A DNA stretch of 37,947 nt. Source: a virus. Below, in pieces: positions 45 through 14,014 of the stretch (position 1 is the stretch's first letter; each line of letters opens with the position of its first letter). The stretch lies in the IMG/VR virus record IMGVR_UViG_3300042876_000652, positions 1-37,947 of that record; one strand, 5' to 3'. A program made the translations under genes and the position numbers. Below the pieces are notes generated by a model. That model was not told the DNA's origin. It ran no database searches and saw only the letters and a program-made list of their open reading frames with translations.

Positions 45-166
45 AAAAGGGCCTGGGCCGGATCGGGCCTCAGGTTCAATCAGGGCGCGGGTTCCAGGGG
101 CGTTTCGGGCGCGGGGCGATTTGCAGAAAGATTGCGCGGTTTCGTGCGGGCTGTCGCGTGAATCCG

Positions 167-182
167 TCAAAAAGAATGGAAG
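167..182 (+). other. Putative transposase-binding site L2
   Basis: TCAAAAAGAATGGAAG is repeated at 229-243 (L3) and inverted at the right end. Its distance of about 138 bases from L1, with L3 about 62 bases further in, resembles Mu, where L1 is separated from a closer L2-L3 pair by a bendable spacer. The function is inferred from repetition and position. Confidence 0.6.
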
Positions 183-223
183 ATAGCGGGTGTTTGGTGC
201 CGGAGTTTGCGGCCAGTCGCCCG

Positions 224-245
224 CCTTTCAAAAAGAATGGAAGTT
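224..245 (+). other. Putative transposase-binding site L3
   Basis: The motif TTTCAAAAAGAATGGAAG sits at 226-243 within a 22-base block. That block differs from 37864-37885 at the right end at a single base (A instead of T within the A-run). Such conservation between non-coding ends of one element is expected for transposase-binding sites. Confidence 0.65.
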
Positions 246-259
246 TCCCGACGATGTTG

Positions 260-269
260 CCCCCCCCCC
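260..269. repeat. C10 homopolymer between L3 and the repressor gene
   Basis: Ten consecutive C bases lie in the non-coding left end, just beyond L3 and before the 3' end of the repressor gene. It is one of three 10-base G or C tracts in the left 9.2 kb; the other two interrupt reading frames. No function is evident. Confidence 0.6.
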
Positions 270-305
270 GGGCGATTTGGCCAGGCGATCTGCGCCCGGG
301 TGGCC

Positions 306-1085
306 TCACCAGTCCCCTTCTGGTGGATCCGTATCCAATAGGTAGCGGCCAACCCAGCACACGCGGCCCAGGATGACCTGGTGGAGGGGGATGCCATCCA
401 GGTCGATGGTGGCGGGGGCATAGGCGCGGTTATCGGAGGAGAGCACCAGCTGGTATCGATCCGTATCAAGGCGCACCCGCTTCACCCGGGCGTCGTTGCT
501 GTTGGGAGAGCGCCGCACCAGATAGATGGCGTTGCTTCTAGGGCTGAGGCGGCCAACCATGGCGGTGTTGATCAGGACGATCTCCTTATGAAGAATCGTC
601 GGCTGCATGGATTCGCCCTCGCAGAGGAGGAAGAAGAGATCCTGCTCCTGGCCACCACCACATCGATGCAGGATGCGGGCTGCGAAATCCCGGCGCAGCG
701 CGTAACGGCTGGCAGCTGGCCCTGGATCCTGGATCTCCCCGCCCGCACCACAGGTGGCGGCGCCAACGATCAAGGGGCGATCAAGAAATTGATCTGATGC
801 CGTTGAGATCGTTGTTGTGGGTTGTGGTTCGGCCCACATCGATCCATTGCCTTCGATCAACCAGGCCGGGTTAACTTTGTAAACATACTGTAGGGCGATC
901 AATGAAGGTCCATCAGGGAACCGAGTGTTGTTTTCCCAAGAAGAGACAGAACCCTTGGTGATTCCAATACCTTGGCCAAACGCTTCCCCGGTAAGCCCCA
1001 GGGCCGTTCTTAGCTGCCTGATTCTTTCGCCAGGCGTATTAGAAGAGGCAATCGGCCCCGTGATGTTTTTTTTCTGAACTACCAC
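306..1085 (-). CDS. CI/LexA-type lysogeny repressor (HTH + S24 peptidase)
   Basis: This 259-residue protein has an N-terminal XRE-type helix-turn-helix (about residues 18-72, with GITKGSVSSWENNTRFP in the recognition region). Its C-terminal domain is S24 peptidase-like. The nucleophile motif GESM places Ser159, the general-base Lys is Lys202 in RVKRV, and an Ala114-Gly115 pair is a plausible self-cleavage site. Known relatives repress phage early genes and self-cleave with RecA* during the SOS response. The start is GTG, preceded by AAAGGAA about 8 bases upstream on the minus strand. It is transcribed divergently from the early operon and ends about 60 bases from transposase site L3. Mu itself uses a different, non-cleaving repressor, so SOS induction is inferred here. 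Confidence 0.9.
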   Translation of the reverse strand: MVVQKKNITGPIASSNTPGERIRQLRTALGLTGEAFGQGIGITKGSVSSWENNTRFPDGPSLIALQYVYKVNPAWLIEGNGSMWAEPQPTTTISTASDQFLDRPLIVGAATCGAGGEIQDPGPAASRYALRRDFAARILHRCGGGQEQDLFFLLCEGESMQPTILHKEIVLINTAMVGRLSPRSNAIYLVRRSPNSNDARVKRVRLDTDRYQLVLSSDNRAYAPATIDLDGIPLHQVILGRVCWVGRYLLDTDPPEGDW

Positions 1086-1156
1086 TTGACGAGTTCCTTT
1101 GGTTGACCGAGTATTCTTCTGTTGATCCTTAGTTAGCTAAGGGAACCGGAGACAAG
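1086..1156. promoter_or_regulatory. Divergent repressor/early control region
   Basis: This gap lies between the leftward repressor and the rightward early operon. Three direct TTGA repeats are visible: TTGACG at 1086, TTGACC at 1103 and TTGATC at 1122, spaced 17 and 19 bases. An inverted repeat CCTTAG-TTAG-CTAAGG spans 1127-1142, just upstream of the Ner-like gene. TTGACG is a good -35 hexamer, but the -10 candidates after it (around 1109-1117) are weak. Roles as operator and early promoter are inferred from position and symmetry. Confidence 0.5.
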
Positions 1157-1489
1157 ATGCTACCTGAAAAGCTTCCGCGCAAGCGGGCGGCCTATGGCCT
1201 GCCCCCAAGTGTCCAATCCATCCTCGCTACGGCTGCCGATGTGCAGCAGATGATCAGCCACGGGATCAACCCCGACGGGTCATTGAAGCCCGAGGCTATG
1301 CGGGCGTTGTTGAAGCTCAAGGGCGTCAACCTGAAGGCCCTGGCTGAAACCCATGGCTATTCCGACCCCTATTTCCACCAGGTCATCAACCGGGAGTACC
1401 GGGACGTGGTGGTCGAGGATGTGATCGCCGGGTGCTTAGGTCTCTTGTCTGATCGGATCTGGGGCCGCCAGTCCGAGCCTGCCGCCTGA
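1157..1489 (+). CDS. Ner-like small DNA-binding regulator
   Basis: This 110-residue basic protein has a helix-turn-helix-like segment at about residues 52-80 (LLKLKGVNLKALAETHGYSD), followed by a helix and an IWGR tail. The pattern is that of Ner-type and phage regulator proteins ('...LA..HG.S..YF..V....Y...IA..LG'). In Mu, ner is the first early gene and damps both the repressor and early promoters. Here too it is the first rightward gene, starting 72 bases from the repressor start and just after a 16-base inverted repeat. The start is ATG with a GGAGA-like site upstream. The family assignment rests on position and HTH pattern, not on close identity. Confidence 0.6.
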   Translation: MLPEKLPRKRAAYGLPPSVQSILATAADVQQMISHGINPDGSLKPEAMRALLKLKGVNLKALAETHGYSDPYFHQVINREYRDVVVEDVIAGCLGLLSDRIWGRQSEPAA

Positions 1490-1494
1490 CTCTC

Positions 1495-3852
1495 ATGGGC
1501 GCTCGCTTACTCACCAACCCATCCAGGGAAACCGCTGCCTCGGCAGTTGTCCTGCCCGGTTGTCCTGTGGTTGTCCTGTCGGACAGGACAACTGGACAAC
1601 CACGGGTCGGGACAGGACAACCCAGCGTAACCAGTGAATCAACAACAACTTTGATAGCGGCCGGTAGCCCTCCGGTCCAACCTGATTGCGGTAATGAGGT
1701 TGTCCAGTTAGGTGTTGTGGAGCTTGCCGAATTGGCGGGTGTCAGCCGCCAGGCAGTGTTGAAAGCGATCCGCTCGGGGCGCATCGAGGCGGCCCCCATT
1801 AAGGTGGAGAAGGGCCGTCGAACGGGTCGAACGGATTACAAGATCGATCTCGGCATTGCATGGGCGAACTACCCCCAGGCCCGCGCCGCCTACGAAGCCC
1901 GCCAGGCCTCCCAATCCCTTCTCCCGGCCACCATCGAGCCCCGCATCAAGCGGGATCCGCAGCAGGTGGTCCTCCGGGCCAATCCCGAAGCCCTTGAGCG
2001 ATCTCGCCAGGTGCAGCAGGCCCGCCTGAAGCTCCTGGAGCGCACCCGCCTACTGCTGGCTGGCCAGGGCCCGCTTCGCCGGTCTATTAAGAAGGGGCTG
2101 CCGGGCCAGGTGCGCCAGGCGGCCATCACCTGGCTGCTGACCACGCCCGAGGCCGAGGATGTGCGCCAGGTCTTCGGCGAAATCCCCAGCACCAGTACCC
2201 TTAATCGGTGGTGGGCGGCTCTAGCCGAGGATCCCAGTGGGGAATCCCTTCGTCCCCAGTGGAGCGCCTGCGGGCGGCCCCGCAAGGTAGAGCAAGATCC
2301 CAACCTGCTGGACAAAATCACGGGTGCCTTTGCCCACGCGGGCAGCTACGCGCTGGCCACCGAATACCTCCAGAAACAGGGCGTGGCCATCAGTGAAGCC
2401 ACCCTGCGCCGGGTGGTGTCCAACCTGGATCCAGCGATCCGCATGGGCCTGCGCTTTGGTGGCCGCAAGAGCCAAACCGATCTGGGGCCTTATGTGCGCC
2501 GCCGCCCCAGCGCCCCCTTCCAGTGCTGGTCCATCGACGGTCACACCGAGGATTCCATGTGGATCTGGGAAGACCTTCTGCCGGGCGAGCAGGCCAAGGG
2601 GTTCCGGCCCAACATCTATGCGGTTCGGGATGTGGGATCAGGCGCCCTGCTCAGCCTGACGGTGGGCTACAACCTCAACCGCTACCTGCCTTTCATGGCC
2701 ATAGCTGAGGCCATCCTGCGGACCGGCATCATCCCGGAAACCATCCAGTCGGACAACGGTCGTGAGGTTCGCAACCGATTCTTCCTGGGCGATGAGGACA
2801 TGGTGGGCTATTTCCCCCAGCTGGCCATGGATTGGAAGGATGGAGAGGCCATGTGGCGGGGCGCGTTGCCCTACAACAGCCGCTCAAAGCCGGTGGAACG
2901 CGACTTCCTGAATGTGAAACAGCGTTTTTCGGCCCTTATTCCCACCTTTACCGGCGGCAGCCCCAGCACCCGGCCTGGTGACACCCTGGGCGAAGCGCTC
3001 AAACACGGTCAAATCGAGACCATCGACAGTTTGAAGCTGCGCCTGGATGCCTTCCGGGAAGAGGAAATGGATCGCATCCGGAACCTCCACGGGCACAAGA
3101 TCCATCCCCGTCAGGCCCTGGAGCAGACCAAAGCCAGGCTGCTGCGGGAGCTTGGCCCCGATCACCCCCGCTTCATCCGCCCCGGCCAGGAATGGCGCGT
3201 GCTCCCGAGCCTCAAGGCCCAGAAGGTGCGCGGGTATGTCACCTGCAAGATCGAGGGCCAGGAATTCCGCTACAGCGCTCCCATCCTCCATGAGGTTGAC
3301 GCGGACAACCTGACCGTTCGGATCAACCTGTGGGATGCCCGTCAGGCCTGGCTCTGCCGGGGTGGGGAGCTGCTGGACACCCTCACCTTCGTGCCTGATG
3401 GCCCAGAGTTGGGCGCTGCCGAGACGGATGTGGTGTCGCTCCGCATCATGCAGAACGCCAAGAAGACCCAAAAGGCGGTTCTCCGGCGGGCTGAAATCGA
3501 GCGCGATCGCATCCGCACAGCGGAAGGGTTCCAGGTAGGCCGTCCCACGCTGAAGGTGCTGCCCCAGGAGCCCGTGGAAGTGAACGATCTGACCCAGGAT
3601 CAGCTGCGCCTAGCCCAGGAACAGCGCGAAAAGCTGGGCCTGACCACCCCAGAGCCTGTGGTGGATGCGGCAACAGGCGAACCCACCGCTGAGCCTGTTC
3701 CTTCGGGCCGCGCCGCCCTCAAAGACCGTCTGGAGTGGTGCCGCTACGTCATCGACCACCCAGAGGATGTGGACGACGAAGAACGCCGCGATTTCCAGCG
3801 TTACCTCGATGAAAACCCCCTCGTGCGTCAACAGCTAGGCATCCCCGCCTAG
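1495..3852 (+). CDS. DDE transposase, MuA type
   Basis: This 785-residue protein catalyses DNA strand transfer for integration and replicative transposition. A winged-helix/HTH region at about residues 74-97 (VELAELAGVSRQAVLKAIRSG) resembles the DNA-binding N-terminal part of MuA. The catalytic triad is visible as Asp348 (SIDGH), Asp420 (QSDNG) and Glu468 (KPVER). A beta-barrel region and a charged C-terminal tail follow; in Mu the tail contacts MuB. It is about 120 residues longer than MuA. The first 70 residues are low-complexity and overlap the GTTGTCC repeats, so a start downstream of 1495 is possible. It lies 5 bases after the Ner-like gene and is followed by the MuB-type ATPase. Confidence 0.95.
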   Translation: MGARLLTNPSRETAASAVVLPGCPVVVLSDRTTGQPRVGTGQPSVTSESTTTLIAAGSPPVQPDCGNEVVQLGVVELAELAGVSRQAVLKAIRSGRIEAAPIKVEKGRRTGRTDYKIDLGIAWANYPQARAAYEARQASQSLLPATIEPRIKRDPQQVVLRANPEALERSRQVQQARLKLLERTRLLLAGQGPLRRSIKKGLPGQVRQAAITWLLTTPEAEDVRQVFGEIPSTSTLNRWWAALAEDPSGESLRPQWSACGRPRKVEQDPNLLDKITGAFAHAGSYALATEYLQKQGVAISEATLRRVVSNLDPAIRMGLRFGGRKSQTDLGPYVRRRPSAPFQCWSIDGHTEDSMWIWEDLLPGEQAKGFRPNIYAVRDVGSGALLSLTVGYNLNRYLPFMAIAEAILRTGIIPETIQSDNGREVRNRFFLGDEDMVGYFPQLAMDWKDGEAMWRGALPYNSRSKPVERDFLNVKQRFSALIPTFTGGSPSTRPGDTLGEALKHGQIETIDSLKLRLDAFREEEMDRIRNLHGHKIHPRQALEQTKARLLRELGPDHPRFIRPGQEWRVLPSLKAQKVRGYVTCKIEGQEFRYSAPILHEVDADNLTVRINLWDARQAWLCRGGELLDTLTFVPDGPELGAAETDVVSLRIMQNAKKTQKAVLRRAEIERDRIRTAEGFQVGRPTLKVLPQEPVEVNDLTQDQLRLAQEQREKLGLTTPEPVVDAATGEPTAEPVPSGRAALKDRLEWCRYVIDHPEDVDDEERRDFQRYLDENPLVRQQLGIPA
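1546..1707. repeat. GTTGTCC direct/inverted repeat cluster in transposase 5' region
   Basis: GTTGTCCTG occurs at 1546, 1559 and 1570. The inverse CAGGACAAC occurs at 1584 and 1613, a partial inverse GGACAAC at 1594, and GTTGTCCAG at 1699. Positions 1570-1592 form an 11-bp inverted repeat with a one-base centre (GTTGTCCTGTC-G-GACAGGACAAC). The region is coding, but it translates into a low-complexity Pro/Val/Thr-rich stretch before the first folded domain. It could be a repressor operator or a transposition enhancer, as Mu has near its early promoter. Confidence 0.65.
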
Positions 3853-3886
3853 CTCCCATCAACCATCCCTTCGGGAGGAGGACCCT

Positions 3887-4651
3887 TTGCATCAAGTGTT
3901 CTGTCACACCGTTTCCAATGTTTCACGGCTTCTGGCTGGCATCGCCATCGTCCAGGAGCGCGGCGCCGCTGAGGCTTGCCAGATGCTGGTCACCGGCCAG
4001 CCGGGTCTCGGAAAAACCGAAACCCTCGGCTGGTATGTCACCCAGCAGCCTTACGCCGTCTACCTGCGGGCCAAGTCAGGCTGGACGCGGCATTGGTTCC
4101 TGAATGACCTCCTGGCGGAGCTGGGCGAAGCGCCCACCCGTCTGACTGAAGACATGTTCAAGCAGGCCCTGGCCGCCTTGGCCCGCAAACCCTATGTGCT
4201 GGTGGTGGATGAGATCGAGCATGCGCTGAGCGACACGCGGGTGCTGGAGGCCATCCGTGATTTCAGCGACCTCCTGCGTCTTCCCACCGTCCTGGTGGGT
4301 ATGGCCGAAGTGCGGAACAAGATCGCCCGGCATCCCCAGATGCAAAGCCGCATCGCCACCATCGTCACCTTCCAGCCTGCCACCCTGGAAGACATCAAGG
4401 CCACCGCCCAGATGCTGCTGGAAGGCGGCGTGGCCATCACCGAGGACGTGGCCGAGCTGATCCACAAGCGTTCGGAAGGCCGCATGCGCCTGGTGCTGAA
4501 TGGCCTGGCTGCCTGTGAGCGGGTGGCCAAGCTGCGCAAAACCAGGGTGGTGGGCCTGGCCGAGGTCAAGGATGTTGAGCTGGTCCACGACTGGCAGGCC
4601 CGCAAGCCCCAGGCCCTGAAGCCTCAAGCAACCCGAACGGCGGCGCTGTGA
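3887..4651 (+). CDS. AAA+ transposition ATPase, MuB type
   Basis: This 254-residue ATPase is expected to bind target DNA and deliver it to the transposase. The Walker A motif GQPGLGKT is at residues 37-44 and Walker B VLVVDE at 104-109, followed by a sensor-like VLVGM and a C-terminal helical domain. The start is TTG, preceded by an excellent GGGAGGAGGA site; no in-frame ATG lies near the ribosome-binding site. Its length is shorter than Mu B (312 residues) because the N-terminal HTH extension is missing. The stop overlaps the next start (GTGA), implying coupled translation. Confidence 0.92.
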   Translation: MHQVFCHTVSNVSRLLAGIAIVQERGAAEACQMLVTGQPGLGKTETLGWYVTQQPYAVYLRAKSGWTRHWFLNDLLAELGEAPTRLTEDMFKQALAALARKPYVLVVDEIEHALSDTRVLEAIRDFSDLLRLPTVLVGMAEVRNKIARHPQMQSRIATIVTFQPATLEDIKATAQMLLEGGVAITEDVAELIHKRSEGRMRLVLNGLAACERVAKLRKTRVVGLAEVKDVELVHDWQARKPQALKPQATRTAAL

Positions 4652-5205
4652 GCGTCGAGAGCGATGTCCTGCGGGCCCTGGTGCCCGACATGACCACCAT
4701 TGGCCGGGTATCCGTGCGGCAAGTGGCTGAAAGCCTCGGCATCACCCACTACTCAGCCCGCTTCGCCCTTTATGCCCTGATGAAGCGCAAATTGGTCCGC
4801 CGCTGCTGGAAGGGCGTCTACGCCATCACCGTGGAAGGCCTGAAGCAGCTGGAGTCGGGAAAGACCATCACCAGCGGCCCCAAAGGCCCCCGGACGACCA
4901 CCAGCCCTTTCGCCCCGTCCACGCTTCGCTCTCGTGTTTGGCGAGCCCTCCGGCTCAAGCGCGTGGCCTCCGTGGATGAATTGCTGGTGCTGGCCACCAA
5001 AGGCAACGAAGGCAATGCCAGGGAAGACACCCGGCGCTACCTGAACGCCCTGCATCACGCCGGAATCATCGATCCCGCCTGCAACCGGGGCGGCCCCCAG
5101 CGCTTCCTGCTGCTGCGCGACCGGGGTCCCCAGGCCCCCCAGTGGAACAAGCGGCAGAAGCGGATCTACGACCCCAACGACGGGACCACCTATGACCTGG
5201 CGTGA
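4648..5205 (+). CDS. Winged-helix domain protein, early operon
   Basis: This 185-residue protein starts with GTG overlapping the stop of the MuB-type gene. Two winged-helix-like segments are visible. One is at about residues 18-65 (VSVRQVAESLGITHYSARFALYALMKRKLVRR) and a second at about 93-150 (RVWRALRLKRVASVDELLVLA ... YLNALHHAGII). They are joined by a Pro/Thr-rich linker, and the C-terminus is charged. Similar two-domain proteins occur after the B gene in B3/D3112-like transposable phages. A DNA-binding role in early gene control or replication is inferred; I do not recognise a named family. Confidence 0.8.
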   Translation: MSVESDVLRALVPDMTTIGRVSVRQVAESLGITHYSARFALYALMKRKLVRRCWKGVYAITVEGLKQLESGKTITSGPKGPRTTTSPFAPSTLRSRVWRALRLKRVASVDELLVLATKGNEGNAREDTRRYLNALHHAGIIDPACNRGGPQRFLLLRDRGPQAPQWNKRQKRIYDPNDGTTYDLA

Positions 5206-5503
5206 CCTCCTTGAATCCAAGATCAAAGACAAGGGCCAGGCCGCCGTCGCCCGGGAATTGGGCTACTCCGCTACCACCCTCAGCCTGGTCCGCCGGAACA
5301 AGTACCCAGGCAGCACAGATCGCGTCGAAGAGCGGGTGGCCCAGCTGTATGGCGAAGTCCAGTGCCCCTTCCTGGGACAAACCATCCCTGCCGAGCAGTG
5401 CCGACGCATCAGCCATAGCCCCGTTCCCACTTCCAACCCCAAGGCCCTCCGCCATTGGTCGGCCTGCCAATCCTGCAGCCACTTTCACGGAGTCAAGCCA
5501 TGA
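5192..5503 (+). CDS. Small HTH protein with C-terminal cysteine motif
   Basis: This 103-residue protein overlaps the preceding gene by 14 bases. Residues 10-40 (KDKGQAAVARELGYSATTLSLVRRNKYPG) form a Cro/LacI-like helix-turn-helix. The C-terminal half contains CPFLGQTIPAEQC and CQSCSHF, a probable zinc-binding arrangement seen in small phage regulators of this type. It is likely a transcriptional regulator within the early operon. The target is unknown. Confidence 0.75.
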   Translation: MTWRDLLESKIKDKGQAAVARELGYSATTLSLVRRNKYPGSTDRVEERVAQLYGEVQCPFLGQTIPAEQCRRISHSPVPTSNPKALRHWSACQSCSHFHGVKP

Positions 5504-5784
5504 CGCCCATCGAACCTTCCCCCCAGGTGGCGGCCTATGCCGCAGCCGCCTACACCGCCAAGCACGCCCTCAGCCTGGTCACCGATCAGACCAGCCTCGA
5601 AACCGCCTGCGACGCCATCAAGGAGGCCATCATCCGGTCGCTGCCCCTGTCGGGCATCGATCTGGCCATCGCCTCCCTTTTGCGTGATCAGGACGGGCAC
5701 CGTCCGCCCACCCTGCTCTGGCTCCACTACACCCTGCAATCCCAGCTCCGCCAGATGCGGCTATCAGGCCGATGGGCCGCGTGA
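5500..5784 (+). CDS. Hypothetical early phage protein
   Basis: This 94-residue protein has its ATG at 5500 overlapping the previous stop (ATGA), which decides the start over an upstream TTG-type option. It is mostly alpha-helical and Ala/Leu-rich (AAYAAAAYTAKHALSLVTDQTSLETACDAIKEAIIRSLPLSG), with a Trp-rich C-terminus. No motif is recognised and there is no signal peptide. Its position suggests an accessory early function. Confidence 0.65.
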   Translation: MTPIEPSPQVAAYAAAAYTAKHALSLVTDQTSLETACDAIKEAIIRSLPLSGIDLAIASLLRDQDGHRPPTLLWLHYTLQSQLRQMRLSGRWAA

Positions 5785-5909
5785 AAGCCCGCCCATCCCA
5801 GGCCCTGGCCTGGATTCTCGCCCCCTTCTGGCTGCCCATCCTGGGCGCCCTTCACCTTCGGGACGCTTGGCGCCGCTGGCACCACCGCTATCCCACTTGC
5901 CGCCTTTAA
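5772..5909 (+). CDS. Possible 45-residue membrane microprotein
   Basis: This short frame overlaps the previous gene by 13 bases and ends 20 bases before the DUF3164 gene. It has a basic N-terminus (MGRVKARPSQ), a hydrophobic stretch (LAWILAPFWLPILGAL, about residues 12-27) and an Arg/His/Trp-rich tail (RDAWRRWHHRY). This is a one-pass membrane pattern. No clear ribosome-binding site is visible inside the preceding gene, so it depends on coupling. Confidence 0.45.
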   Translation: MGRVKARPSQALAWILAPFWLPILGALHLRDAWRRWHHRYPTCRL

Positions 5910-5929
5910 CCCCAGCACAAGGAGCATGC

Positions 5930-6541
5930 ATGACCATCAAAATCCCCGAGGGCTACCGGAAGAACGCCAATGGCGATCTGGTCCTCATCGAGAACATCCG
6001 CCCCATTGATCTGCTCAGGGATGAGCTGGTTCAGGGCATCGCCGAAGAAGCCCAGGCCCGCTCGGGAGAGCTGGCCTCCTTCCGTGCTGATGTCGTGGCC
6101 CGCATCGAAACCTTCGTGCAGGAAAGCGCCGCCCGCTTCAAGGCCAAGCTGGGCGGCGTGAAGGGCAACCTCAGCCTGTTGAGCTTCGACGGGCGATTTA
6201 AGGTCGTCATGGCCACCCAGGACAACATCACCTTCGACGAACGCTTGCAGGTGGCCAAGACCCTCATCGATAAGTGCATCAAGAAGTGGAGCAATGGCGC
6301 CGACGCCAACCTGCTGGCCCTGGTGAACGACGCCTTCCAGGTGGACAAGTCCGGCAATGTCTCCATCCGCCGCGTGCTGGGCCTGCGTCAGCTCGACATC
6401 GACGACAAGGATTGGAAACGGGCCATGGATGCCATCGGCGAAAGCACCCAGGTCACTGGCAGCAAGAGCTACCTCCGCATCTACGAACGCCAGGCCAATG
6501 GGGACTACAAACCCATCAGCCTCGATGTGGCCTCGGCCTGA
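5930..6541 (+). CDS. DUF3164 family phage protein
   Basis: This 203-residue protein starts at ATG 5930 behind AAGGAGC. It begins with MTIKIPEGYRKNANGDLVLIENIRPIDLLRDELV and has a central segment FKAKLGGVKGNLSLLSFDGRFKVVMATQDNITFDERLQVAK. It ends with a helical region and a YLRIYER motif, the recognisable layout of DUF3164, common in Mu-like phages and usually located a few genes after B. The biochemical role of the family is not established. Association with transposition or DNA replication is suggested only by constant gene position. Confidence 0.85.
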   Translation: MTIKIPEGYRKNANGDLVLIENIRPIDLLRDELVQGIAEEAQARSGELASFRADVVARIETFVQESAARFKAKLGGVKGNLSLLSFDGRFKVVMATQDNITFDERLQVAKTLIDKCIKKWSNGADANLLALVNDAFQVDKSGNVSIRRVLGLRQLDIDDKDWKRAMDAIGESTQVTGSKSYLRIYERQANGDYKPISLDVASA

Positions 6542-6548
6542 GGTTGCC

Positions 6549-6947
6549 ATGAACGAGAACATCGACGCCCTGACCCGAGATCTGGCCATCCGCCGTCGCC
6601 CCATGGCCTACCTCAGCGGGCCCATGAGCGCTCGGGACGCCCTCTCCCGCGCCCGCCACCGCCACGCAGCCCTGGACGCCTCCCATCAGCTGTGGGAGGC
6701 CGGTGTGCTCCACTACTGCCCCCACGCCAACGGCCCCGCCATCGGCTGCACGGATGTCCCCTACGAAGAATGGATGGCCATGGACATCGAAGCCCTGCGC
6801 CGCTGCGATTTCATCATCATGGTGGCGGAATGGACCTCCAGCCCCGGCTGTCGCCGGGAGCTGGCCCTGGCCCTGCACCTCGGTATGCCGGTGGCCTATT
6901 CCATTGAGACGGCCATCGAACTCTACAAGAACCTGCGGGCCGCCTGA
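6549..6947 (+). CDS. Nucleoside 2-deoxyribosyltransferase-like (DUF4406/DUF1937) protein
   Basis: This 132-residue protein contains the fold hallmarks YLSGPMS near the N-terminus (residues 19-25) and a helix with HRHAALDASHQLWEAG. It then has an acidic EEWMAMDIEALRRCDFIIMVAEWTSSPGCRRELALAL segment. These match the Rossmann-like nucleoside 2-deoxyribosyltransferase superfamily, where the late Asp/Glu residues bind and transfer the sugar. In phages such proteins are thought to act in nucleotide salvage or base modification. It overlaps the sigma factor start by one base. The substrate is unknown. Confidence 0.75.
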   Translation: MNENIDALTRDLAIRRRPMAYLSGPMSARDALSRARHRHAALDASHQLWEAGVLHYCPHANGPAIGCTDVPYEEWMAMDIEALRRCDFIIMVAEWTSSPGCRRELALALHLGMPVAYSIETAIELYKNLRAA

Positions 6948-7621
6948 TGAGTTGCGAACCCTCCACCGCCAGGCCATTGCCCTGCTACATCACCATCCAG
7001 GGCGCGGACTACCTGTGGACGCAGGAGGATGGCCTTGATCCTGAGGCCATCCTCACGCTCCAGCGGTTCATCTGGAAAGAAGCCCGCCGGTACCAGTCCA
7101 TCGGCATCAAGGCCGGGCTTTCCGTGGATGACCTGGTGCAGGAGGGGCAGCACGGTGCCCTGCTCGCCGCACGACGCTTCGACCCTGACAAGGGCTTCCA
7201 GTTCCTGACTTATGCAGTCTGGTGGATCCGCAACCGCATCCTTGAGGTATTGCGCGGCCACCAGGTCTACATCCCCAAGGAAGTGTCACGGGCCCTTCGA
7301 CGGGTCGATGGCCTGCCCCCCGTATGCAGTCTCGATTTTCCGCTCTTCGCCGATGGCGCCACCATCGCCGATACCATCCCGGGCGATCAGGGCCAGGCCG
7401 TTACCGAAGCACAGATGGAGGCCCAGGATGTCCGCCGCCTGGTCCGCCTTCTCACTCCCAAAGAACAGCAGATCCTCATCCGCCATTACGGCCTCCATGG
7501 CCGTCCTGACGAAACCCTGGAAGCCATCGGCAACACCTATGGGGTGAGCCGGGAGCGCATCCGCCAAATCGAGAGCCAGGCCTTGGCCCGACTCAGGAAA
7601 CACATCGCCTACAAGGGCTGA
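6947..7621 (+). CDS. Phage-encoded sigma-70 family RNA polymerase sigma factor
   Basis: This 224-residue protein has sigma region 2 at about residues 36-104, with DDLVQEGQHGALLAARRFDPDKGFQFLTYAVWWIRN very close to the core-binding and -10 recognition elements of primary sigmas. It also has region 4 at about 165-220 (LTPKEQQILIRHYG ... TYGVSRERIRQIESQALARLR), the -35 binding HTH. Region 1 and most of region 3 are absent or reduced. It sits in the early operon, coupled by an ATG overlapping the previous TGA. By analogy with phage sigmas it would redirect host RNA polymerase to middle or late phage promoters. Mu instead uses Mor and C, which I do not find here. Confidence 0.92.
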   Translation: MSCEPSTARPLPCYITIQGADYLWTQEDGLDPEAILTLQRFIWKEARRYQSIGIKAGLSVDDLVQEGQHGALLAARRFDPDKGFQFLTYAVWWIRNRILEVLRGHQVYIPKEVSRALRRVDGLPPVCSLDFPLFADGATIADTIPGDQGQAVTEAQMEAQDVRRLVRLLTPKEQQILIRHYGLHGRPDETLEAIGNTYGVSRERIRQIESQALARLRKHIAYKG

Positions 7622-7633
7622 ACGGGAGGGTTC

Positions 7634-7816
7634 ATGCCGCAATTCGCAGTTCAACTCACCATCGAAAGCGTGATCCGCGAAAAGAAGCGGGAAGAGCGTG
7701 CGGATGCCCGTCAAGCCAGGGATCATCGCCGCCAGCTCAAGGCCGCCACCGCTGGAACACCCCTTCTCCAGTTTGATGCCACCGAAACCTCCGATCAGGA
7801 GGTGCGCCGTGGCTAA
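7634..7816 (+). CDS. Small charged hypothetical protein
   Basis: This 60-residue protein starts with ATG behind GGGAGGG. Its N-terminal beta-like MPQFAVQLTIESV is followed by a highly charged helix (IREKKREERADARQARDHRRQLKAA) and an acidic tail. It overlaps the next gene's GTG start by 8 bases. No family is recognised. Confidence 0.6.
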   Translation: MPQFAVQLTIESVIREKKREERADARQARDHRRQLKAATAGTPLLQFDATETSDQEVRRG

Positions 7817-8043
7817 GGCTTGGGCAGTGGATGAATACGCCCGCTGGAAGCCCACGTCCTTGGGCGAAAGCTGCCACATCAAGGGTGGCAAGTGCGTCGG
7901 CTCCTATTGGCAGGCGGGGGGGGGGCAAATTCTTTGCCACTTATCACGCCATCGAACCCTTTACGGGCCCGTTCAGTGGCCCTTCCGAGGCTCGCGGATG
8001 GGTGGACGACCACGCCCGTTCCGAGTTCCAGGTGAAGTCATGA
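7809..8043 (+). pseudogene. Small gene broken or phase-shifted at a G10 tract
   Basis: GTG at 7809 follows AGGAGGTG. The product begins AKAWAVDEYARWKPTSLGESCHIKGGKCVGSYWQAGGG. It then meets ten G bases (7916-7925). With nine G the frame would continue as KFFATYHAIEPFTGPFSGPSEARGWVDDHARSEFQVKS. It would stop at 8043 with a 4-base overlap on the next start, giving a tidy 77-residue protein. With ten G, as written, the frame instead reads through to 8456 and fuses in frame to the next gene (215 residues). A sequencing error, a real mutation, slippage or phase variation are all possible. Function is unknown. Confidence 0.6.
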
Positions 8044-8456
8044 GCCTCCAGCACAACGCCATCGAGCTGCTCGACTACACCGCCAATACCCTCAACGGCC
8101 TCGCGGAAGATTCCAGCCAACCCGCCAATTGCCGCTATGCCGCTGCCCGTCTGGGGGAGGCCGCAACGCGGTTACGGGTAGAGCCCTGCCGCCCCGAGGA
8201 CATCCGCGCCTCTTTCGACATCATGGTCCAGGCCAAGTCTTCCCTGTGCTTGCTGAAACAGGGCGAGCATCCCACGGTCGTCCGGGGCTGGGTGGATTCC
8301 GCCTGCTACACCTACAACGCCATCATCGACCTCATGGAGGCTCTGGAAGCCTTCCACAAGCACATCACCCTCGACCAGGCCGCCAGCACCCGCCCAATGA
8401 GTTCCCGCCTAATGGGACTCCTGCCAGCTGGATGGGGAGGGGATCGGCATGACTGA
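8040..8456 (+). CDS. Hypothetical helical early protein
   Basis: This 138-residue protein has its ATG at 8040 overlapping the stop of the G9 frame upstream, which supports that start. Mainly helical, it contains LLDYTANTLNGLAEDSSQPANCRYAAARLGEAATRL and a central helix YTYNAIIDLMEALEAFHKHIT. No motif is recognised. In the sequence as written it is also in frame with the upstream G10 gene and could be made as its C-terminal part. Confidence 0.65.
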   Translation: MSLQHNAIELLDYTANTLNGLAEDSSQPANCRYAAARLGEAATRLRVEPCRPEDIRASFDIMVQAKSSLCLLKQGEHPTVVRGWVDSACYTYNAIIDLMEALEAFHKHITLDQAASTRPMSSRLMGLLPAGWGGDRHD

Positions 8457-9424
8457 ATCCGTCCGCATCCGCGAAATTCGCCAGGATCTTGCCGAGCTGA
8501 GAGATCCAGGAGCCCACGATGGCCCCGGCCACGCGCTCTTCCTGGCCCTCCAGAAAAGCTACATCGAGGATCTGGCGTTGCTTGGGGCCTCCATTCAGCC
8601 CGAGGAGACCCGCCGTCCAGCCGTTCGTCTGGCCACCATCCCGGTTAAACCCGTAACAAAACCACCTCTTCCTGAAACAAAGCCGCCCACTCATGAAACA
8701 AAACCGTCCCGATGCTTAACCTTCCCGCAGATTCCTGAGACCAAGCTCGCGGGTTCCCCGACCCCAACCCAGGAGGTGCGCCATGCCGACAGCCCCGGTA
8801 ACGCCGGGGCGCCAGGCGCAACTTCCACTCCTGAGGCACCCATGTCTAAACCGCACGCCGCCGCAGCTACGGCTTCACCCGAAGAGCAGCTCGATACCCT
8901 CCTCGCCAAACTTAGCAACGCTACGGCCGATTGCGTCACCGCGCTGAACAAGGTGGCTTTTCAGAAGGCCCGGGCCGCCGTCCACCAGCACCGCTGGAAC
9001 ATCTCCAAGCTTTTGAAGGCCCATGACCTCGAAGCCCCGGTGCTCCCAGCGATCCCCAGCAATCCCTGGGCGAAACCCATCACCAGGTCTCGGAAGACTG
9101 TTTCCAAACAAAGCGCCCCCCCCCCAGCAATTACAAATCACACAGCAGCCAGAGGCTCCAGTGCAGCCTGATCCAGTGCCCCTGCGCATTGACGGCAAGT
9201 CAATCGCTGCCTTCCTGCGGGCCCAGGGGGCCACATCCGCACCTCAGGAACCATCCATCCCCGAAGCCGCCGCCCGCTTCCGCGCCCTGCGGCTCCAGGC
9301 CCTGGAAGTGCTCCCGGCCTGTGAAGGCCTTTCTCGCGAGGATGGCTATGCCGTCCGCCATCAGATCGACCTCCTGGCGGATGTGCTGGCCATGGCAGAT
9401 CGCCTCGCTCGGGAGGCCTCATGA
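8449..9424 (+). pseudogene. Pro-rich early protein frameshifted at a C10 tract
   Basis: ATG at 8449 follows GGGGAGGGGA. As written the frame ends at 9171 (240 residues). A helical start (MTESVRIREIRQDLAELRD) leads into a Pro/Thr/Lys-rich linker, then a helical domain (EEQLDTLLAKLSNATADCVTALNKVAFQKARAAVHQHRWNISKLL). Ten C bases at 9116-9125 break it. With nine C the reading continues PPPQQLQITQQPEAPVQPDPVPLRIDGKSIAAFLRAQ through a helical domain and stops at 9424, overlapping the next ATG by 4 bases (324 residues). The restored overlap argues that C9 is the functional state. ATG 8842 is a possible internal start for the second half. Confidence 0.6.
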
Positions 9425-9993
9425 ACCTCGTTTGGATCGACACCGAGACGGGCGGCCTGGATCCAGCCACCCACAGCCTGCTCACCCTGGCCCTGGTGAT
9501 CCGGCGGCCCGATGGGGCCTGTGAGCACACGGAGATCGCCTTCCAGCATGCGCCCTATGTGGTGGATGCCGAGGCCATGGCTGTGAACCGCATCGACCTG
9601 GTGAAGCACCATGCCAAGGCCTGTGTGCCAGCCCATGCTGCCTCCCTTCTGGATGCCTTCCTGGGCCGCCATATTGCCCCAGATCAAACGGTGATGCTGG
9701 GTGGACACAATGTGGGCTTCGACACGGCCTTCCTGATCCGCTTCCTGCGCAGGTCAGCACCGCATCTCCTCTCGCGGATCAGCCATCGCAGCGTGGACAC
9801 CATGACCCTGGCAGCTGCCATGCAGGTTGTCGGTGTGCTCCCCAGTAGCGTCACAGGCCTCACCGCGCTCCTGGACTACTTTGGCGTTGTCCTCCCTCAG
9901 GAGCAGCGCCACACCGCCCTGGGCGATGCCATGGCCACGGCTGAGCTGTTCCAACGCATGACGGATCGACTTAACAAGGGGAAGGGCCGATGA
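9421..9993 (+). CDS. DEDDh-family 3'-5' exonuclease (DnaQ-like)
   Basis: This 190-residue protein has motif I WIDTETGGLD (Asp7, Glu9), motif II GHNVGFD (Asp101) and motif III HTALGDA (His164, Asp169). That is the complete metal-binding and catalytic set of DEDDh exonucleases. Related enzymes proofread DNA synthesis or trim DNA or RNA ends (DnaQ, RNase T). No polymerase is encoded nearby, so it probably acts alone or with the host replisome during phage replication or to process DNA ends. It is translationally coupled to both neighbours. Confidence 0.88.
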   Translation: MNLVWIDTETGGLDPATHSLLTLALVIRRPDGACEHTEIAFQHAPYVVDAEAMAVNRIDLVKHHAKACVPAHAASLLDAFLGRHIAPDQTVMLGGHNVGFDTAFLIRFLRRSAPHLLSRISHRSVDTMTLAAAMQVVGVLPSSVTGLTALLDYFGVVLPQEQRHTALGDAMATAELFQRMTDRLNKGKGR

Positions 9994-10259
9994 GACCCCT
10001 CCGCACCAAGCCCCAGTCCAACAAAACCAACCATCTGCCCGCTGGCATCTCCTGCACATGGCGGAAGCGGAAAGGGAAGCGCCCCTACTTCGAGTACCAG
10101 GTCTATTGGTCCACCAGGCGCGGCATCCCAAAGATCAAAAACTTCTACGTGGGCGTAGATCCCACCCCCATCCGCATGCGCCTGATGCTGCTGAAGGCCA
10201 TCGCCTTCCGCCGGGCCTATGAACTCAACCGCCTTCAATCACGCCGCAAATCCCGTTAG
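9990..10259 (+). CDS. Small basic protein, AP2-like DNA-binding candidate
   Basis: This 89-residue, very basic protein overlaps the exonuclease stop by 4 bases. The segment LPAGISCTWRKRKGKRPYFEYQVYWSTRRGIPKIKNFYVG has three predicted beta strands with conserved Gly/Trp/Tyr spacing. A helix follows (MRLMLLKAIAFRRAYELNRLQ). This layout resembles the AP2/integrase-arm fold (three strands packing on one helix) found in some phage proteins and homing endonucleases. The assignment is from pattern only. Nucleic-acid binding is likely from charge. Confidence 0.6.
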   Translation: MRPLRTKPQSNKTNHLPAGISCTWRKRKGKRPYFEYQVYWSTRRGIPKIKNFYVGVDPTPIRMRLMLLKAIAFRRAYELNRLQSRRKSR

Positions 10260-10269
10260 GAGACCTGCC

Positions 10270-10476
10270 ATGGCACTCGCAGCCCAGAATCTTGAAACCC
10301 CCAACAGCCGCACCATCCTTCGCAGCAGCCTCATGCACGCCGTGATCGAGGCCATGGACAAGCGCTTCCGAGAGCCCTTGGCCACCAGGGCCTCAGAACC
10401 CCGGGAGGTTGCCCCCGCCCACAACCGCCATGACCGCCGCAAGGCAGCCGCACTTGGGCGAAGGGGGCAGCGATGA
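10270..10476 (+). CDS. Small hypothetical protein with basic tail
   Basis: This 68-residue protein starts at ATG 10270 behind TAGGAGACC. It has a helix SRTILRSSLMHAVIEAMDKRFREPLA and an Arg/His-rich tail HNRHDRRKAAALGRRGQR. It overlaps the next start by 4 bases. No family is recognised. The tail resembles those of small nucleic-acid-binding phage proteins. Confidence 0.55.
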   Translation: MALAAQNLETPNSRTILRSSLMHAVIEAMDKRFREPLATRASEPREVAPAHNRHDRRKAAALGRRGQR

Positions 10477-10910
10477 GCACTTTCCGTTGTGCCTGCGGGA
10501 ACGTGTGGTGCATGGGCCCAGCCCTTGGGACCCAGCACGGAACCTGCCCGATCTGCCTGAAAACCCGGATTCAAAGGGTCATCAACGAGAGGGAGGAGGC
10601 GCTTTCATTCAATGGGAACCTTCGCGAAATCATTGGAGAACGCGAGGAGGAGATCGCTCGCCTCAGTGAGCAGCTCCATGGGGAGAAAGTTTCGACCCAA
10701 GCCAAGGACTGGAACCCGATTGAAACGGCCCCGCAAGACGAAACGCCTATCCAGGGCTGGAACGGGCTCGAAATGACCTCCATCAAATGGGACAAGCTCA
10801 TGGGCCGATGGGAACTGGTCTGTCCCGGTGAATATGCAGAAGACCTAACCTTCCACCCGATCTGCTGGATGCCTTTGCCCGCCGAACCGTGTGTGGAGGT
10901 GCAGCCATGA
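10473..10910 (+). CDS. Zinc-ribbon, coiled-coil and DUF551-like protein
   Basis: This 145-residue protein has three parts. An N-terminal CxCxxxxC ... CPIC zinc-ribbon-like pattern is at residues 6-28. A charged coiled coil follows (RVINEREEALSFNGNLREIIGEREEEIARLSEQLHGEK). The C-terminal region begins WNPIETAPQDETPI and ends CWMPLPAEP, typical of DUF551 and similar phage proteins. It lies in a block of small coupled genes. Function is not known; a sensor or adaptor role would be speculation. Confidence 0.65.
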   Translation: MSTFRCACGNVWCMGPALGTQHGTCPICLKTRIQRVINEREEALSFNGNLREIIGEREEEIARLSEQLHGEKVSTQAKDWNPIETAPQDETPIQGWNGLEMTSIKWDKLMGRWELVCPGEYAEDLTFHPICWMPLPAEPCVEVQP

Positions 10911-11434
10911 TCGACCTCACCTTGATCGCCCCCAGGCAGGATGGGAAGTTCTCCACCAACCTGTGGCGTCACCTGAAGAAGCACCAGGTCCGCTATGGGC
11001 TCCAGGTGTTCCAGCGCACCAAGAGCTTCTTTGATGGATCGCCCACGGACCCCAATGCCTGGCACATGGGTGACATCTGGATAGGGGAGGCCCCGGACCC
11101 AGACTGGATTCACGGACTCACCCTCCGCGCCCTCATTCAGGATCGGTGCTCCTCTACGGGCTGGGCCATTCCTCTCGGCGTGAGCGGCTACCGGGAGATC
11201 ACCCAGGAATTCTGGGAAACCTACCTCCGCATCGGGCGCTGCTGCTGGGATCGCAGCCACCTGGATTTCATGCGGAACAATGAAAACCGGTTCACCACCA
11301 TCGGGAACACCCGCCGATGCAATTGGTGCGGGAAGTGGTTCTCCCTTCAGATCAAAAAGAAGACTCGCATTGAACGGGTGCCCACCTGGGTACCAGATCA
11401 GCGGGCGCAGGTCGTCTTGGCGTGCCTGAGATGA
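10907..11434 (+). CDS. Hypothetical protein with zinc-finger-like CxxC
   Basis: This 175-residue protein has its ATG at 10907 overlapping the previous stop (ATGA), so I prefer it to a GTG 18 bases upstream. The body is rich in Trp and aromatic residues (AWHMGDIWIGEAPDPDWIHGLTLRALIQDRC). A helix-rich middle is followed near the C-terminus by RRCNWCGKWFSLQIKKKTRIERVPTW, a CxxC pair with an aromatic and basic tail. One more Cys pair (RCCW) is about 35 residues earlier. No family is recognised. Confidence 0.6.
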   Translation: MIDLTLIAPRQDGKFSTNLWRHLKKHQVRYGLQVFQRTKSFFDGSPTDPNAWHMGDIWIGEAPDPDWIHGLTLRALIQDRCSSTGWAIPLGVSGYREITQEFWETYLRIGRCCWDRSHLDFMRNNENRFTTIGNTRRCNWCGKWFSLQIKKKTRIERVPTWVPDQRAQVVLACLR

Positions 11435-11685
11435 ATGTGAAGGCCGCCGCCCATTCCACCCTGGGGCATATCCCCAACCTGCATAGCTTGAAGGCCTTCC
11501 CGCCTGCGTGTGATGCCGTCACAGCACACAGGCTCGAAGACTTGCTCAAGCGAATTGAATCTGGCGAGATAAATGGTGACCGAGCCCATCGGTGTTTGGG
11601 TTGGGTCCAGGGCGCCCTTTGCGCACGCGGAGCGGGAACTCGCGAAGAGTTCAACACCATTAATCGAATGGTGGACGCCATATGA
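11431..11685 (+). CDS. Hypothetical helical protein
   Basis: This 84-residue protein has its ATG at 11431 overlapping the previous TGA. Its middle (AVTAHRLEDLLKRIESGEINGDRAHRCLGWVQGALC) is two helices. The end (TREEFNTINRMVDAI) is helical too. The pattern resembles small phage proteins that pair with a larger partner; the family is not recognised. Four-base overlaps on both sides show that it is read as part of a coupled series. Confidence 0.6.
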   Translation: MNVKAAAHSTLGHIPNLHSLKAFPPACDAVTAHRLEDLLKRIESGEINGDRAHRCLGWVQGALCARGAGTREEFNTINRMVDAI

Positions 11686-11900
11686 GCCTCAAAACCGGAA
11701 CAACTCTGGTTAGCCCTGATGGCCGTCGGTTCAGGGTCCATGCCGTGGGCGGGTGCAATAGCCAAGGGGAGGCCACGGTCAGCCTTCACAGGATGGATCG
11801 GCGGCCCCGGGAACAGAAGACCGTCTACCGTTCCACGAAAGAGGTCGAAGGGTGGATGGGCCAAGTGGCCGAGAAACTCAGCTGCGGTAGGCATCTATGA
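11682..11900 (+). CDS. Small beta-rich hypothetical protein
   Basis: This 72-residue protein opens with MSLKTGTTLVSPDGRRFRVHAVGG, a short SH3-like strand pattern, and ends with a helix (STKEVEGWMGQVAEKLS). It overlaps both neighbours by 4 bases. No recognised family. Confidence 0.55.
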   Translation: MSLKTGTTLVSPDGRRFRVHAVGGCNSQGEATVSLHRMDRRPREQKTVYRSTKEVEGWMGQVAEKLSCGRHL

Positions 11901-12076
11901 AGATCCAAGCCTTCTACCAAATCCCCGAAGATCCCCACAACTGGACCGAGGACTACTCGCACGAAAACGGTAACTACTGCGTCAAGTGCCCAGTCTGCGG
12001 GTGCTTCTTCAGAGGTCACAAACGCCGCCCCGTATGCCGTCAATGCTTTCTTGAAACCACTATCCAGCCCAGCTGA
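11897..12076 (+). CDS. 59-residue zinc-ribbon microprotein
   Basis: This short frame encodes a protein whose second half reads YCVKCPVCGCFFRGHKRRPVCRQCFLETT. It has a CxxCxxC knuckle and a CxxC pair separated by a basic loop, enough to bind one zinc. The ATG overlaps the previous stop. Such small zinc ribbons often bind DNA, RNA or RNA polymerase, but the target here is unknown. Confidence 0.6.
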   Translation: MKIQAFYQIPEDPHNWTEDYSHENGNYCVKCPVCGCFFRGHKRRPVCRQCFLETTIQPS

Positions 12077-12109
12077 GGCTGTTCACATCCACCACCCAAG
12101 GAGAACGCC

Positions 12110-12475
12110 ATGGGCCAAGCAAAACGCCGAGGCACCTTTGAAGAACGCAAAGCTCAGGCCGTTGAGCGCGAACAGAAGCGCCGAGAGAGCGCCGCGAACC
12201 GTCCCGTTTATGTTCCGAGGCGCATTAGCGGGATTCTCGCCCTCCTGGCTGCCAGGCCCTCATCCCGCGCAAGTAGCCCACCTGTCCACTACCGGAGGCT
12301 CAATGCTCCCTTGGCGATCAATGAAAGATTCCAAACCGGAAAACGGTCAGCGGGTGATGGCAATTCAGGCCAACCCGATCATCGGCACGGAGATCATAAC
12401 GGCTTACGGGAACACCCTGAACGGGACGGGCAACTATACGGAGCCCTTTGTAACCCACTGGTGCCCGACCACTGA
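12110..12475 (+). CDS. Small basic phage protein (start MGQAKRRGTFEERKAQA)
   Basis: A frame of 121 residues starts behind AAGGAG. Its first 30 residues (MGQAKRRGTFEERKAQAVEREQKRRE) are the typical basic start of a small phage protein family of unknown function. The rest is Arg/Ser/Pro/His-rich and looks non-coding where it overlaps the better frame starting at 12303. The true protein is probably shorter or frameshifted before about 12300. Confidence 0.5.
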   Translation: MGQAKRRGTFEERKAQAVEREQKRRESAANRPVYVPRRISGILALLAARPSSRASSPPVHYRRLNAPLAINERFQTGKRSAGDGNSGQPDHRHGDHNGLREHPERDGQLYGALCNPLVPDH

Positions 12476-12521
12476 GATTGAAATTCCAGCAGGCGTTCCG
12501 GCTGTCGGAGCTATCCGCTAA
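12303..12521 (+). CDS. DUF551-like small protein
   Basis: This 72-residue frame starts with ATG shortly after GGAGG. WRSMKDSKPENGQRVMAIQ at the start and THWCPTTEIEIPAG at the end match the layout of DUF551-type proteins (W...P.dG..V and a tHW.PlP end). It overlaps the 12110 frame by 173 bases in another phase. It may be the second half of one interrupted gene or a separate gene; I favour it as the coding frame here. Confidence 0.5.
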   Translation: MLPWRSMKDSKPENGQRVMAIQANPIIGTEIITAYGNTLNGTGNYTEPFVTHWCPTTEIEIPAGVPAVGAIR

Positions 12522-12541
12522 CGAATGTCCAGGAGTTCTAT

Positions 12542-12703
12542 ATGGGAATCACCGAATGGAAGCGCGACCTGAATTGGTTTGCGAAGATGCTTCGGCGGTT
12601 TCAATGCTGGCGCAATTTCGTGGCGAAGTATCAACGAGACAAACGCCATGAAGCCTGGGAACGCCGAAAAGAACGCATCCGAAAATTCACATCCCGCGCC
12701 TAG
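12542..12703 (+). CDS. 53-residue very basic protein
   Basis: ATG at 12542 follows AGGAGTTCT. The product MGITEWKRDLNWFAKMLRRFQCWRNFVAKYQRDKRHE continues with an Arg/Lys/Glu-rich tail. It is rich in Trp, Phe and Arg and probably forms one or two amphipathic helices. Membrane or nucleic-acid association is possible. No family is recognised. Confidence 0.45.
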   Translation: MGITEWKRDLNWFAKMLRRFQCWRNFVAKYQRDKRHEAWERRKERIRKFTSRA

Positions 12704-12740
12704 CGCGTATGTCCAGGTCGCCCTGGATCGAAAGGACGCC

Positions 12741-13112
12741 ATGACCACCAAAGACCCATTCACCGTCATCCTGCGGGGCCACAGTGATGACATTCTTTAT
12801 ATCGCGGGTGCGCTGGATGAAGAACTCTATCCCAGCCGCGAAGCCCAGAACAGCCAAGGCACCGACGAAGCTGATGTCCTGGCCTTCAGCGATGGCTCGC
12901 TTTTGAGGGTGCGTTATGACGGAGATGGGGTGTGGCGGCTCACCTTCGCGCTCTTTGGTCCTGGAACCATCGTCACCAAGACCGATGGCACCATGGACAG
13001 CGGCTCAGACGAAGTGATCCTGAAGGCCAAAGCCCCCTTCCAGTGGGCGATCCTTGGCCCCAGCCAGGGCCTGGTGAAGGTGCGGAAGCCGACGGGTGGG
13101 CACGATGCCTAA
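12741..13112 (+). CDS. Hypothetical acidic beta-rich protein
   Basis: This 123-residue protein starts at ATG 12741, preceded by AAAGGACGCC. The central part DEADVLAFSDGSLLRVRYDGDGVWRLTFALFGPGTIVTKT alternates strands. DSGSDEVILKAKAPFQWAILG follows. The shape matches small phage proteins without assigned function that occur in early regions. It overlaps the next start by 8 bases. Confidence 0.65.
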   Translation: MTTKDPFTVILRGHSDDILYIAGALDEELYPSREAQNSQGTDEADVLAFSDGSLLRVRYDGDGVWRLTFALFGPGTIVTKTDGTMDSGSDEVILKAKAPFQWAILGPSQGLVKVRKPTGGHDA

Positions 13113-13509
13113 GCCCACCCTCAAACTCACCGCCCGCGAACAGCGCCTGCTTGACCGTCAGCTCCGGGCCGCTGCCAAGGTGCCCCTGAAGACCCAGCTC
13201 GCCTTCATGGAGGCTTGGCGCGGCCAGAAGCATCTCTGCATGGAGGATCTGGCCAAGTCCCTTGGCATCACCGAGGACGCGGCCTGGGGGATCTTCAGCA
13301 AGCCTCCCAGCTACCGCCAGCGGGTGGCTCTGGAGGTCAAGGGGATCCCGAAGACTACCAAGCAGGCATTCCTGGATGCCGTGAAGGGCGGGAAGACCGT
13401 TGGCGAGGCTCAAGCCTTGGCGGGGATTTCCAGCGATGCCTCGCTGTGCCTGCTGAGACGCGCCATGAAGCGCAACACCTACATCACGATGGATTGGGTG
13501 GCGAAATGA
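13105..13509 (+). CDS. Two-HTH DNA-binding protein upstream of gemA
   Basis: This 134-residue basic protein has two helix-turn-helix-like segments. The first is MEDLAKSLGITEDAAWGIF at about residues 48-66 and the second TVGEAQALAGISSDASLCLLRRAM at about 99-122. Its place next to gemA is where other Mu-like phages keep regulators such as Mor. It does not show the usual Mor family features, so I call it only a DNA-binding candidate. ATG 13105 is chosen over an upstream GTG. Confidence 0.65.
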   Translation: MPKPTLKLTAREQRLLDRQLRAAAKVPLKTQLAFMEAWRGQKHLCMEDLAKSLGITEDAAWGIFSKPPSYRQRVALEVKGIPKTTKQAFLDAVKGGKTVGEAQALAGISSDASLCLLRRAMKRNTYITMDWVAK

Positions 13510-13979
13510 GCACCGCCGTTCAGATCAAGATCATTCACACCCTGCGCGGGCAGATTCCGGGCCTGGCCGAAGACGATGTGTACCGGGATTTCCTGGAGAG
13601 CGTGGCGGGGAAGCGCAGCAGCAAGGATCTGACCGAGGATCAAGCCCGGCAGGTCATGCGGGCGCTGGAACAGCTGCGGGGCGGCAAGGTCGTGCAGGTC
13701 AAGAAGTCCGACGATCCCAAGGCCCCGCTCATTGGCCGCATCCTCCGGGAAGCCTATTCAGCGGGCTGGGATCGTCCCGAGCAGGCCGGGGCCTTCGATA
13801 GCAGCGATGCGGCCCGGCGCCAGCGCACCCGGGACCGGGTGATGGCCTGGCTGAAAACACACCATCCCCATCTCCACGGCAGCCCCAAGCGCCTGGAGGC
13901 ATGGCCTGTGGAAGCCCTCCAACACCTCATGGAGCACCTGAAGGGCGTGGTCGGGGCGCAACGGCGCTGGAAGCGGTAG
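13506..13979 (+). CDS. gemA: GemA / Mu gp16 family regulatory protein
   Basis: This 157-residue protein contains the family signature IKIIHTLRGQIPGLAEDDVYRDFLESVAGKRSSKDLTEDQARQVMRALEQL at residues 7-60. A linker and a C-terminal helical domain (RTRDRVMAWLKTHHPHLHGSPKRLEAWPVEALQHLMEHLKGV) follow. In Mu, GemA modulates host gene expression and DNA gyrase-related functions. It is coupled by a 4-base overlap to the HTH gene upstream and is the last gene of the early/middle run. Confidence 0.88.
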   Translation: MSTAVQIKIIHTLRGQIPGLAEDDVYRDFLESVAGKRSSKDLTEDQARQVMRALEQLRGGKVVQVKKSDDPKAPLIGRILREAYSAGWDRPEQAGAFDSSDAARRQRTRDRVMAWLKTHHPHLHGSPKRLEAWPVEALQHLMEHLKGVVGAQRRWKR

Positions 13980-14014
13980 GATCATCTTTAGAACCCAACC
14001 CAAAAGGAGTGTGT

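Follow-up and report, generated by a model that had tools for sequence, protein, structure and literature searches.

What switches on the middle and late genes of a transposable phage that has no recognisable Mor/C activator and carries a sigma factor of its own? The question is raised by a virus record, 37,947 bp long and analysed over its full length, that is referred to here as the window (Table 1). The window has the MuA-type transposase, the MuB-type ATPase and the GemA protein of Mu-like transposable phages and lacks their Mor/C. The original prediction, made on the letters of the window, was that a dedicated sigma factor in the early operon could replace the Mor/C cascade.

Table 1 Features of the window that bear on the sigma factor and on the place where Mor would be expected
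Feature	Coordinates	Strand	Remarks
CI/S24-type repressor	306-1085	-	
Ner-like early regulator	1157-1489	+	HTH_35 / phrog_769
MuA-type transposase	1495-3852	+	phrog_310
MuB/TniB-type transposition ATPase	3887-4651	+	phrog_296
DUF3164 gene of transposable phages	5537-6541	+	conserved neighbour upstream of sigma; served to find relatives
DUF4406 / nucleoside 2-deoxyribosyltransferase-like gene	6537-6947	+	overlaps sigma start
Phage sigma-70-family factor, 224 aa	6947-7621	+	ATG start; Pfam, PHROG, solved chains, AlphaFold model
Domains of the sigma factor (residues)			clade-specific N-terminal domain 1-36; region 2, 37-106; 3.2-like linker; region 4, 169-218
60-aa gene directly 3' of sigma	7634-7816	+	Q-L-T-I...GTPLLQF
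HTH-like protein, once suggested as hidden Mor/C	13105-13509	+	not Mor; not conserved in G001
GemA	13506-13979	+	PF06252; marks site after which Mor normally comes
Lipoprotein-like gene, last early gene	14015-14746	+	phrog_1353
38-nt non-coding block, candidate control element	14757-14794	+	conserved with G001
Strong intrinsic terminator closing the early operon	14904-14927	+	
93-aa HTH/excisionase-like gene at Mor position	14929-15210	-	76% identical in G001
Structured leader 5' of first late gene	15341-15453	+	weak evidence
Holin-like gene (weak), first of the late genes and of the lysis/packaging operon	15454-15792	+	
SLT transglycosylase/endolysin, late module	16097-16759	+	
Large terminase, late module	18115-19791	+	

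By its sequence, the factor belongs to the sigma-70 family. It has both region 2 (PF04542, 58.6 bits against a cut-off of 24) and region 4 (PF04545, 53.7 bits against 24.1), and it is predicted to bind core RNA polymerase and to act in initiation. It also matched the PHROG sigma family phrog_351 (E = 3e-42) and the broad superfamily model TIGR02937 (90.7 against a cut-off of 42.9), the best curated models were RpoS and RpoD, with RpoS first, and the nearest solved chains were RpoS and SigA. Sigma factors were the top structural matches of an AlphaFold model (mean pLDDT 75), at a low global TM because the placement of the domains is uncertain. Within the family it is not a primary or group 1-2 sigma of the RpoD/RpoS kind, as TIGR02394 gave 107 bits against an equivalog cut-off of 379. 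Nor is it an ECF (group 4) sigma, because its region 4 is of the PF04545 type and not Sigma70_r4_2, a 3.2-like linker (SLDxPLxxDGATIADTIPGD) is kept in the alignment with solved chains, and its best model is RpoS. Profile matches, position and conservation thus agree with the prediction of a sigma-70 family gene within a transposable phage's early operon, and the Pfam scores and best models likewise bear out regions 2 and 4 that resemble those of primary sigmas, with region 1 missing. The word “full” used for the factor does not hold: regions 1.2 and 3 gave no Pfam match, and the protein is a trimmed sigma in which region 3.0-3.1 is missing along with region 1. Residues 1-36 form a clade-specific domain (xEPxTAxxLPxxVxVxxxxxLWTxxxGLDP) that contains a predicted beta-hairpin.

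The gene is no chance open reading frame, because this sigma recurs in an unchanged place, directly after the DUF3164 and DUF4406 genes, in nine IMG/VR relatives on independent contigs. Searching with the DUF3164 neighbour yielded six contigs with the sigma just downstream in all six, and profile searches added G001, G003 (locus L010) and G010 (L098). Relative G001 (IMGVR_UViG_2840087968_000001; 37,011 bp, 55% identity) is collinear with the window over most of the genome. Cut-offs for regions 2 and 4 were passed by all ten family members, bar region 2 of G003, which fell just under. Outside the clade the sigma is rare, as a strong region 4 was found in one (G010) of 41 other DUF3164-bearing transposable phages. 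Further loci from the profile search (e.g. L054-L056 and L079-L080) had general sigma similarity only, and a Mor scan of nine records with such loci found none. A single-sequence search of IMG/VR and GTDB with the sigma returned a Patescibacteria region 4 as its sole match, and the neighbour and profile searches did better. G001 alone was found in a search for extra members of the window lineage, and a plasmid search gave only distant terminases. Mosaicism is visible in these genomes: the window transposase is 79% identical to that of G001 and about 24% to that of G007, and its DUF3164 protein is 72-79% identical to those of most other sigma-bearing relatives and 56% to that of G001.

The predicted absence of Mor/C from the window was confirmed by three kinds of search. 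PF08765 (Mor/C) had no match at E ≤ 10, and hhalign over every window ORF of at least 55 aa reached a best probability of 15%. A Mor HMM built without the sigma clade, which as a positive control gave 67-76 bits to the genuine Mors of that clade, gave at best 7.5 bits to any ORF of the window or G001. Mor is missing from its usual place after gemA in both of these genomes, each of which retains the sigma, and since the gap lies well inside the two records' ends, truncation does not account for it. Of 41 further DUF3164 phages, 40 had a Mor match (above cut-off in 37). Among the sigma-bearing relatives, PF08765 was above cut-off in G003, G005, G007 and G008 (62-72 bits) and likewise in G010; sigma and Mor are thus both kept in five of the five relatives whose records contain Mor. 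Gene order in G008 is GemA, lipoprotein gene, Mor and lysis genes. The sigma-bearing fragments other than G001 that are Mor-less measure 7.9-11.6 kb and may stop short of Mor. Sigma without Mor is therefore seen in the window phage and G001 only, both near-complete genomes of one lineage, and the proposed co-occurrence of the sigma with the absence of Mor/C holds for these two and fails for the five relatives that encode both proteins.

On balance, the sigma probably serves as an early promoter-specificity factor for phage middle and late promoters, together with Mor in most relatives and without it in the window lineage. Expressed early, it would use region 2 to bind the core RNA polymerase of the host and region 4 to read a -35-like element, and would redirect polymerase to the middle and late promoters of the phage. 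Through most of the family it would act jointly with one Mor/C activator; in the window lineage, after the loss of Mor, a sigma whose promoter-reading surface is more RpoD-like may work by itself. Partnership between Mor and a sigma factor is plausible, because Mor of Mu depends on sigma70 and alpha for their C-terminal regions (PMC4287176).

In the family alignment, the promoter-contact motifs WWIR and R-E-R-[IV]-R-Q are intact only in the window phage and G001, which read FLTYAVWWIRNRI and YFTYAAWWIRARI, respectively, in region 2.3-2.4 and SRERIRQIE and SRERVRQLQ in region 4.2. From the mapping onto E. coli RpoD, we take the aromatic pair of WWIR to act in -10 melting and R-E-R-x-R-Q to read the -35 element; among the residues of the window sigma that presumably contact the -10 element, two are altered (Q437 to N and T440 to L, E. 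coli numbering). The Mor-bearing relatives lack some of these residues, in one motif or in both, and have YLSYADHWIRQAM, FFTYARFKMLAPM or FLTYAFYWIRHCM in region 2.3-2.4 and TREPVRRLQ, SRQRVQQIE or TRQRVAQIE in region 4.2. Against the two intact motifs, the relatives thus have HWIR, YWIR or FKML and REPVRR, RQRVQQ or RQRISQ. The pattern fits a sigma that would lean on Mor in the relatives and stand alone in the window phage and G001, in a comparison that sets three fragments aside and amounts to two phages against five, because the Mor-less sigma phages form one lineage.

A scan of positions 1-16000 for consensus sigma-70 promoters found 0 against 3.5 expected. The conserved non-coding block, which follows the last early gene and precedes the terminator, occupies the place that Pm has in Mu. 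Its core TTGACCTnAATnnGCAGCAAG, which includes TTGACC, matches G001 at 18 of 21 positions between poorly alignable flanks; in a shuffle control 17 matches were reached in one of 300 shuffles and 18 in none. The block is a candidate only, because in the window a transcript begun at this site would meet the terminator. A second candidate promoter region spans 15211-15453, and neither the TTGACC block nor the late-leader block recurs elsewhere in the window. In the leader of the first late gene, a stem closing over the ribosome-binding site is predicted in both the window and G001 (z -2.6 and -1.2).

The chief rival of the sigma for the succession to Mor is the leftward gene at the Mor position, which has the early terminator on one side and the late operon on the other and is transcribed away from the late genes. 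It has a homologue in G001 (11756-12058, minus strand) and is absent from all other loci compared. Because it is restricted to the two Mor-less phages, its HTH-like product could have succeeded Mor, using host sigma, with the phage sigma as an auxiliary. We hold this possible but unlikely. The G001 homologue weakly resembles phrog_66 (E = 0.04), which is excisionase/regulator-like, but the window protein had no family match above cut-off and a poor fold model (pLDDT 52), and small divergent HTH genes often act as local repressors. Its takeover would also leave unexplained why a sigma with intact DNA-contact residues is kept.

In a MuB tree, the window and G001 are nested among sigma phages that have Mor, and the sigma is therefore placed before the loss of Mor. 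The parsimonious order, in which the sigma was gained with Mor present and Mor was lost later, is likely and falls short of certain because genes have clearly been exchanged: MuA and DUF3164 point to different closest relatives. These results divide the original prediction. Sigma without Mor in both near-complete genomes of the lineage keeps a takeover by the sigma live there, but a one-to-one replacement of the cascade by a sigma recruited for that purpose is improbable, given that five relatives have both proteins and that the tree implies sigma first. One report, moreover, finds no Mor/C in any of the predicted prophages of Leptospira, so that Mor-less transposable phages like the window were already known, and this too speaks against a one-to-one replacement; the main text of that report has no whole-word occurrence of “sigma factor” (PMC8705779). 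The sigma is no general substitute for Mor, since relatives carry both, and it is more likely to have begun as a partner of Mor and to have stayed as the only recognisable factor.

A sigma that is directed at host genes, in a takeover, stress or dormancy regulon, and not at phage promoters is quite improbable. The RpoS/RpoD-like character of the protein would suit such a role, and Bacillota phages are known to encode sigmas that change the programmes of their hosts (PMC9429907). The gene has, however, a fixed place in the early operon that is kept across a divergent clade of transposable phages, and host targeting would not predict that residues in regions 2.4 and 4.2 vary with Mor status. That a Mor/C is present and has diverged past detection is extremely improbable. 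In favour of this reading, the HTH-like protein upstream of GemA, the hidden homologue that had been named as able to overturn the prediction, matched phrog_836 weakly and at the HTH level (E = 0.12). Against it, the protein gave 2.3-3.4 bits in profile searches (2.3 with the leave-clade-out model, against the 67-76 of genuine relatives) and is not conserved in G001.

The C-terminal tails of the activators may connect this regulation with replication. Q-x-x-[LMI]-F occurs in the last 20 residues of 20 of 32 non-redundant Mor/C proteins (loci L097-L170 plus Mu, L174:182-571 and 1364-1786), and most of the Mor tails seen are QxxLF or near to it. Composition-preserving shuffles gave a mean of 0.41 and a maximum of 4, and 0.25% of 4,806 other ORF tails have the motif. 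Mu Mor ends in ...YQPSLL (QPSLL) and Mu C in ...HQPDLFSPETPK (QPDLF); among six Mor/C proteins from cultured phages, the tail is QRRLF in two and QRDLFEAA, QPDLF, QPNLF and QMPLLPDGN in one each. The tail Qxx(L/M)F resembles the motif that binds the bacterial beta sliding clamp, QL(S/D)LF at the C-terminus (PMC9690074), and this likeness suggests replication-tethered activation; a search of open-licence papers for this motif on Mor/C, or for a link between Mor/C and the clamp, found none. Mu late genes are expressed once replication has begun, and C contacts beta-prime and is active in vitro without added clamp, so any role of the clamp would be replication coupling in vivo (PMC4461284).

Within the sigma clade, the tails of Mor are GGLF/PLLF-like. 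A 60-aa protein of the form Q(L)TI-D-IR...GxPLF is encoded by a separate gene in the window and in G001 (7291-7473), and its homologue, ending in GxxLF, is fused to the C-terminus of the sigma in six relatives (G002 and G004-G008). Such GxxLF-like tails are weak clamp candidates because the consensus Q is missing. It is a tentative and rather unlikely idea that transposable phages tether their middle and late transcription to the beta clamp of the host, with the motif on Mor/C including those of Mu, and with the clamp-tail sigma of this clade joining or replacing Mor, convergently with gp55, gp33 and gp45 of T4.

Compared with RpoS and RpoD (group 1/2 sigma-70), the window sigma shares regions 2 and 4, the 3.2-like linker, the WWIR melting dyad and the R-E-R-x-R-Q recognition helix, whereas region 1 and the 3.0-3.1 domain are gone and the N-terminal domain is unique. 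The phage resembles Mu in kind and in the gene order MuA, MuB, GemA and late lysis module, and a single Mor is retained in relatives at its canonical position; it departs from Mu, as does G001, in having a sigma in the early operon and no Mor/C. T4 gp55, which works with gp33 and the sliding clamp gp45 (PMC7892883), is likewise a phage-encoded late factor of the sigma family, and the hydrophobic C-terminal tails on the sigma relatives and on Mor recall the clamp-binding tails of T4 as a resemblance of motifs. Unlike gp55, which consists of region 2 only, the window sigma has region 4 too and is itself tail-less, the tail being on the separate 60-aa gene. A search of open-licence papers turned up none that describes a sigma factor in Mu-like transposable phages.

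Mor/C has so far been treated as a marker of Mu-like transposable phages. A clade in which most members have Mor together with a sigma, and one lineage has the sigma alone, would make it possible to test directly how promoters that depend on an activator come to depend on a sigma factor. The tail motif of Mor/C, in turn, offers a testable reason why the late genes of Mu may come on only after replication starts.
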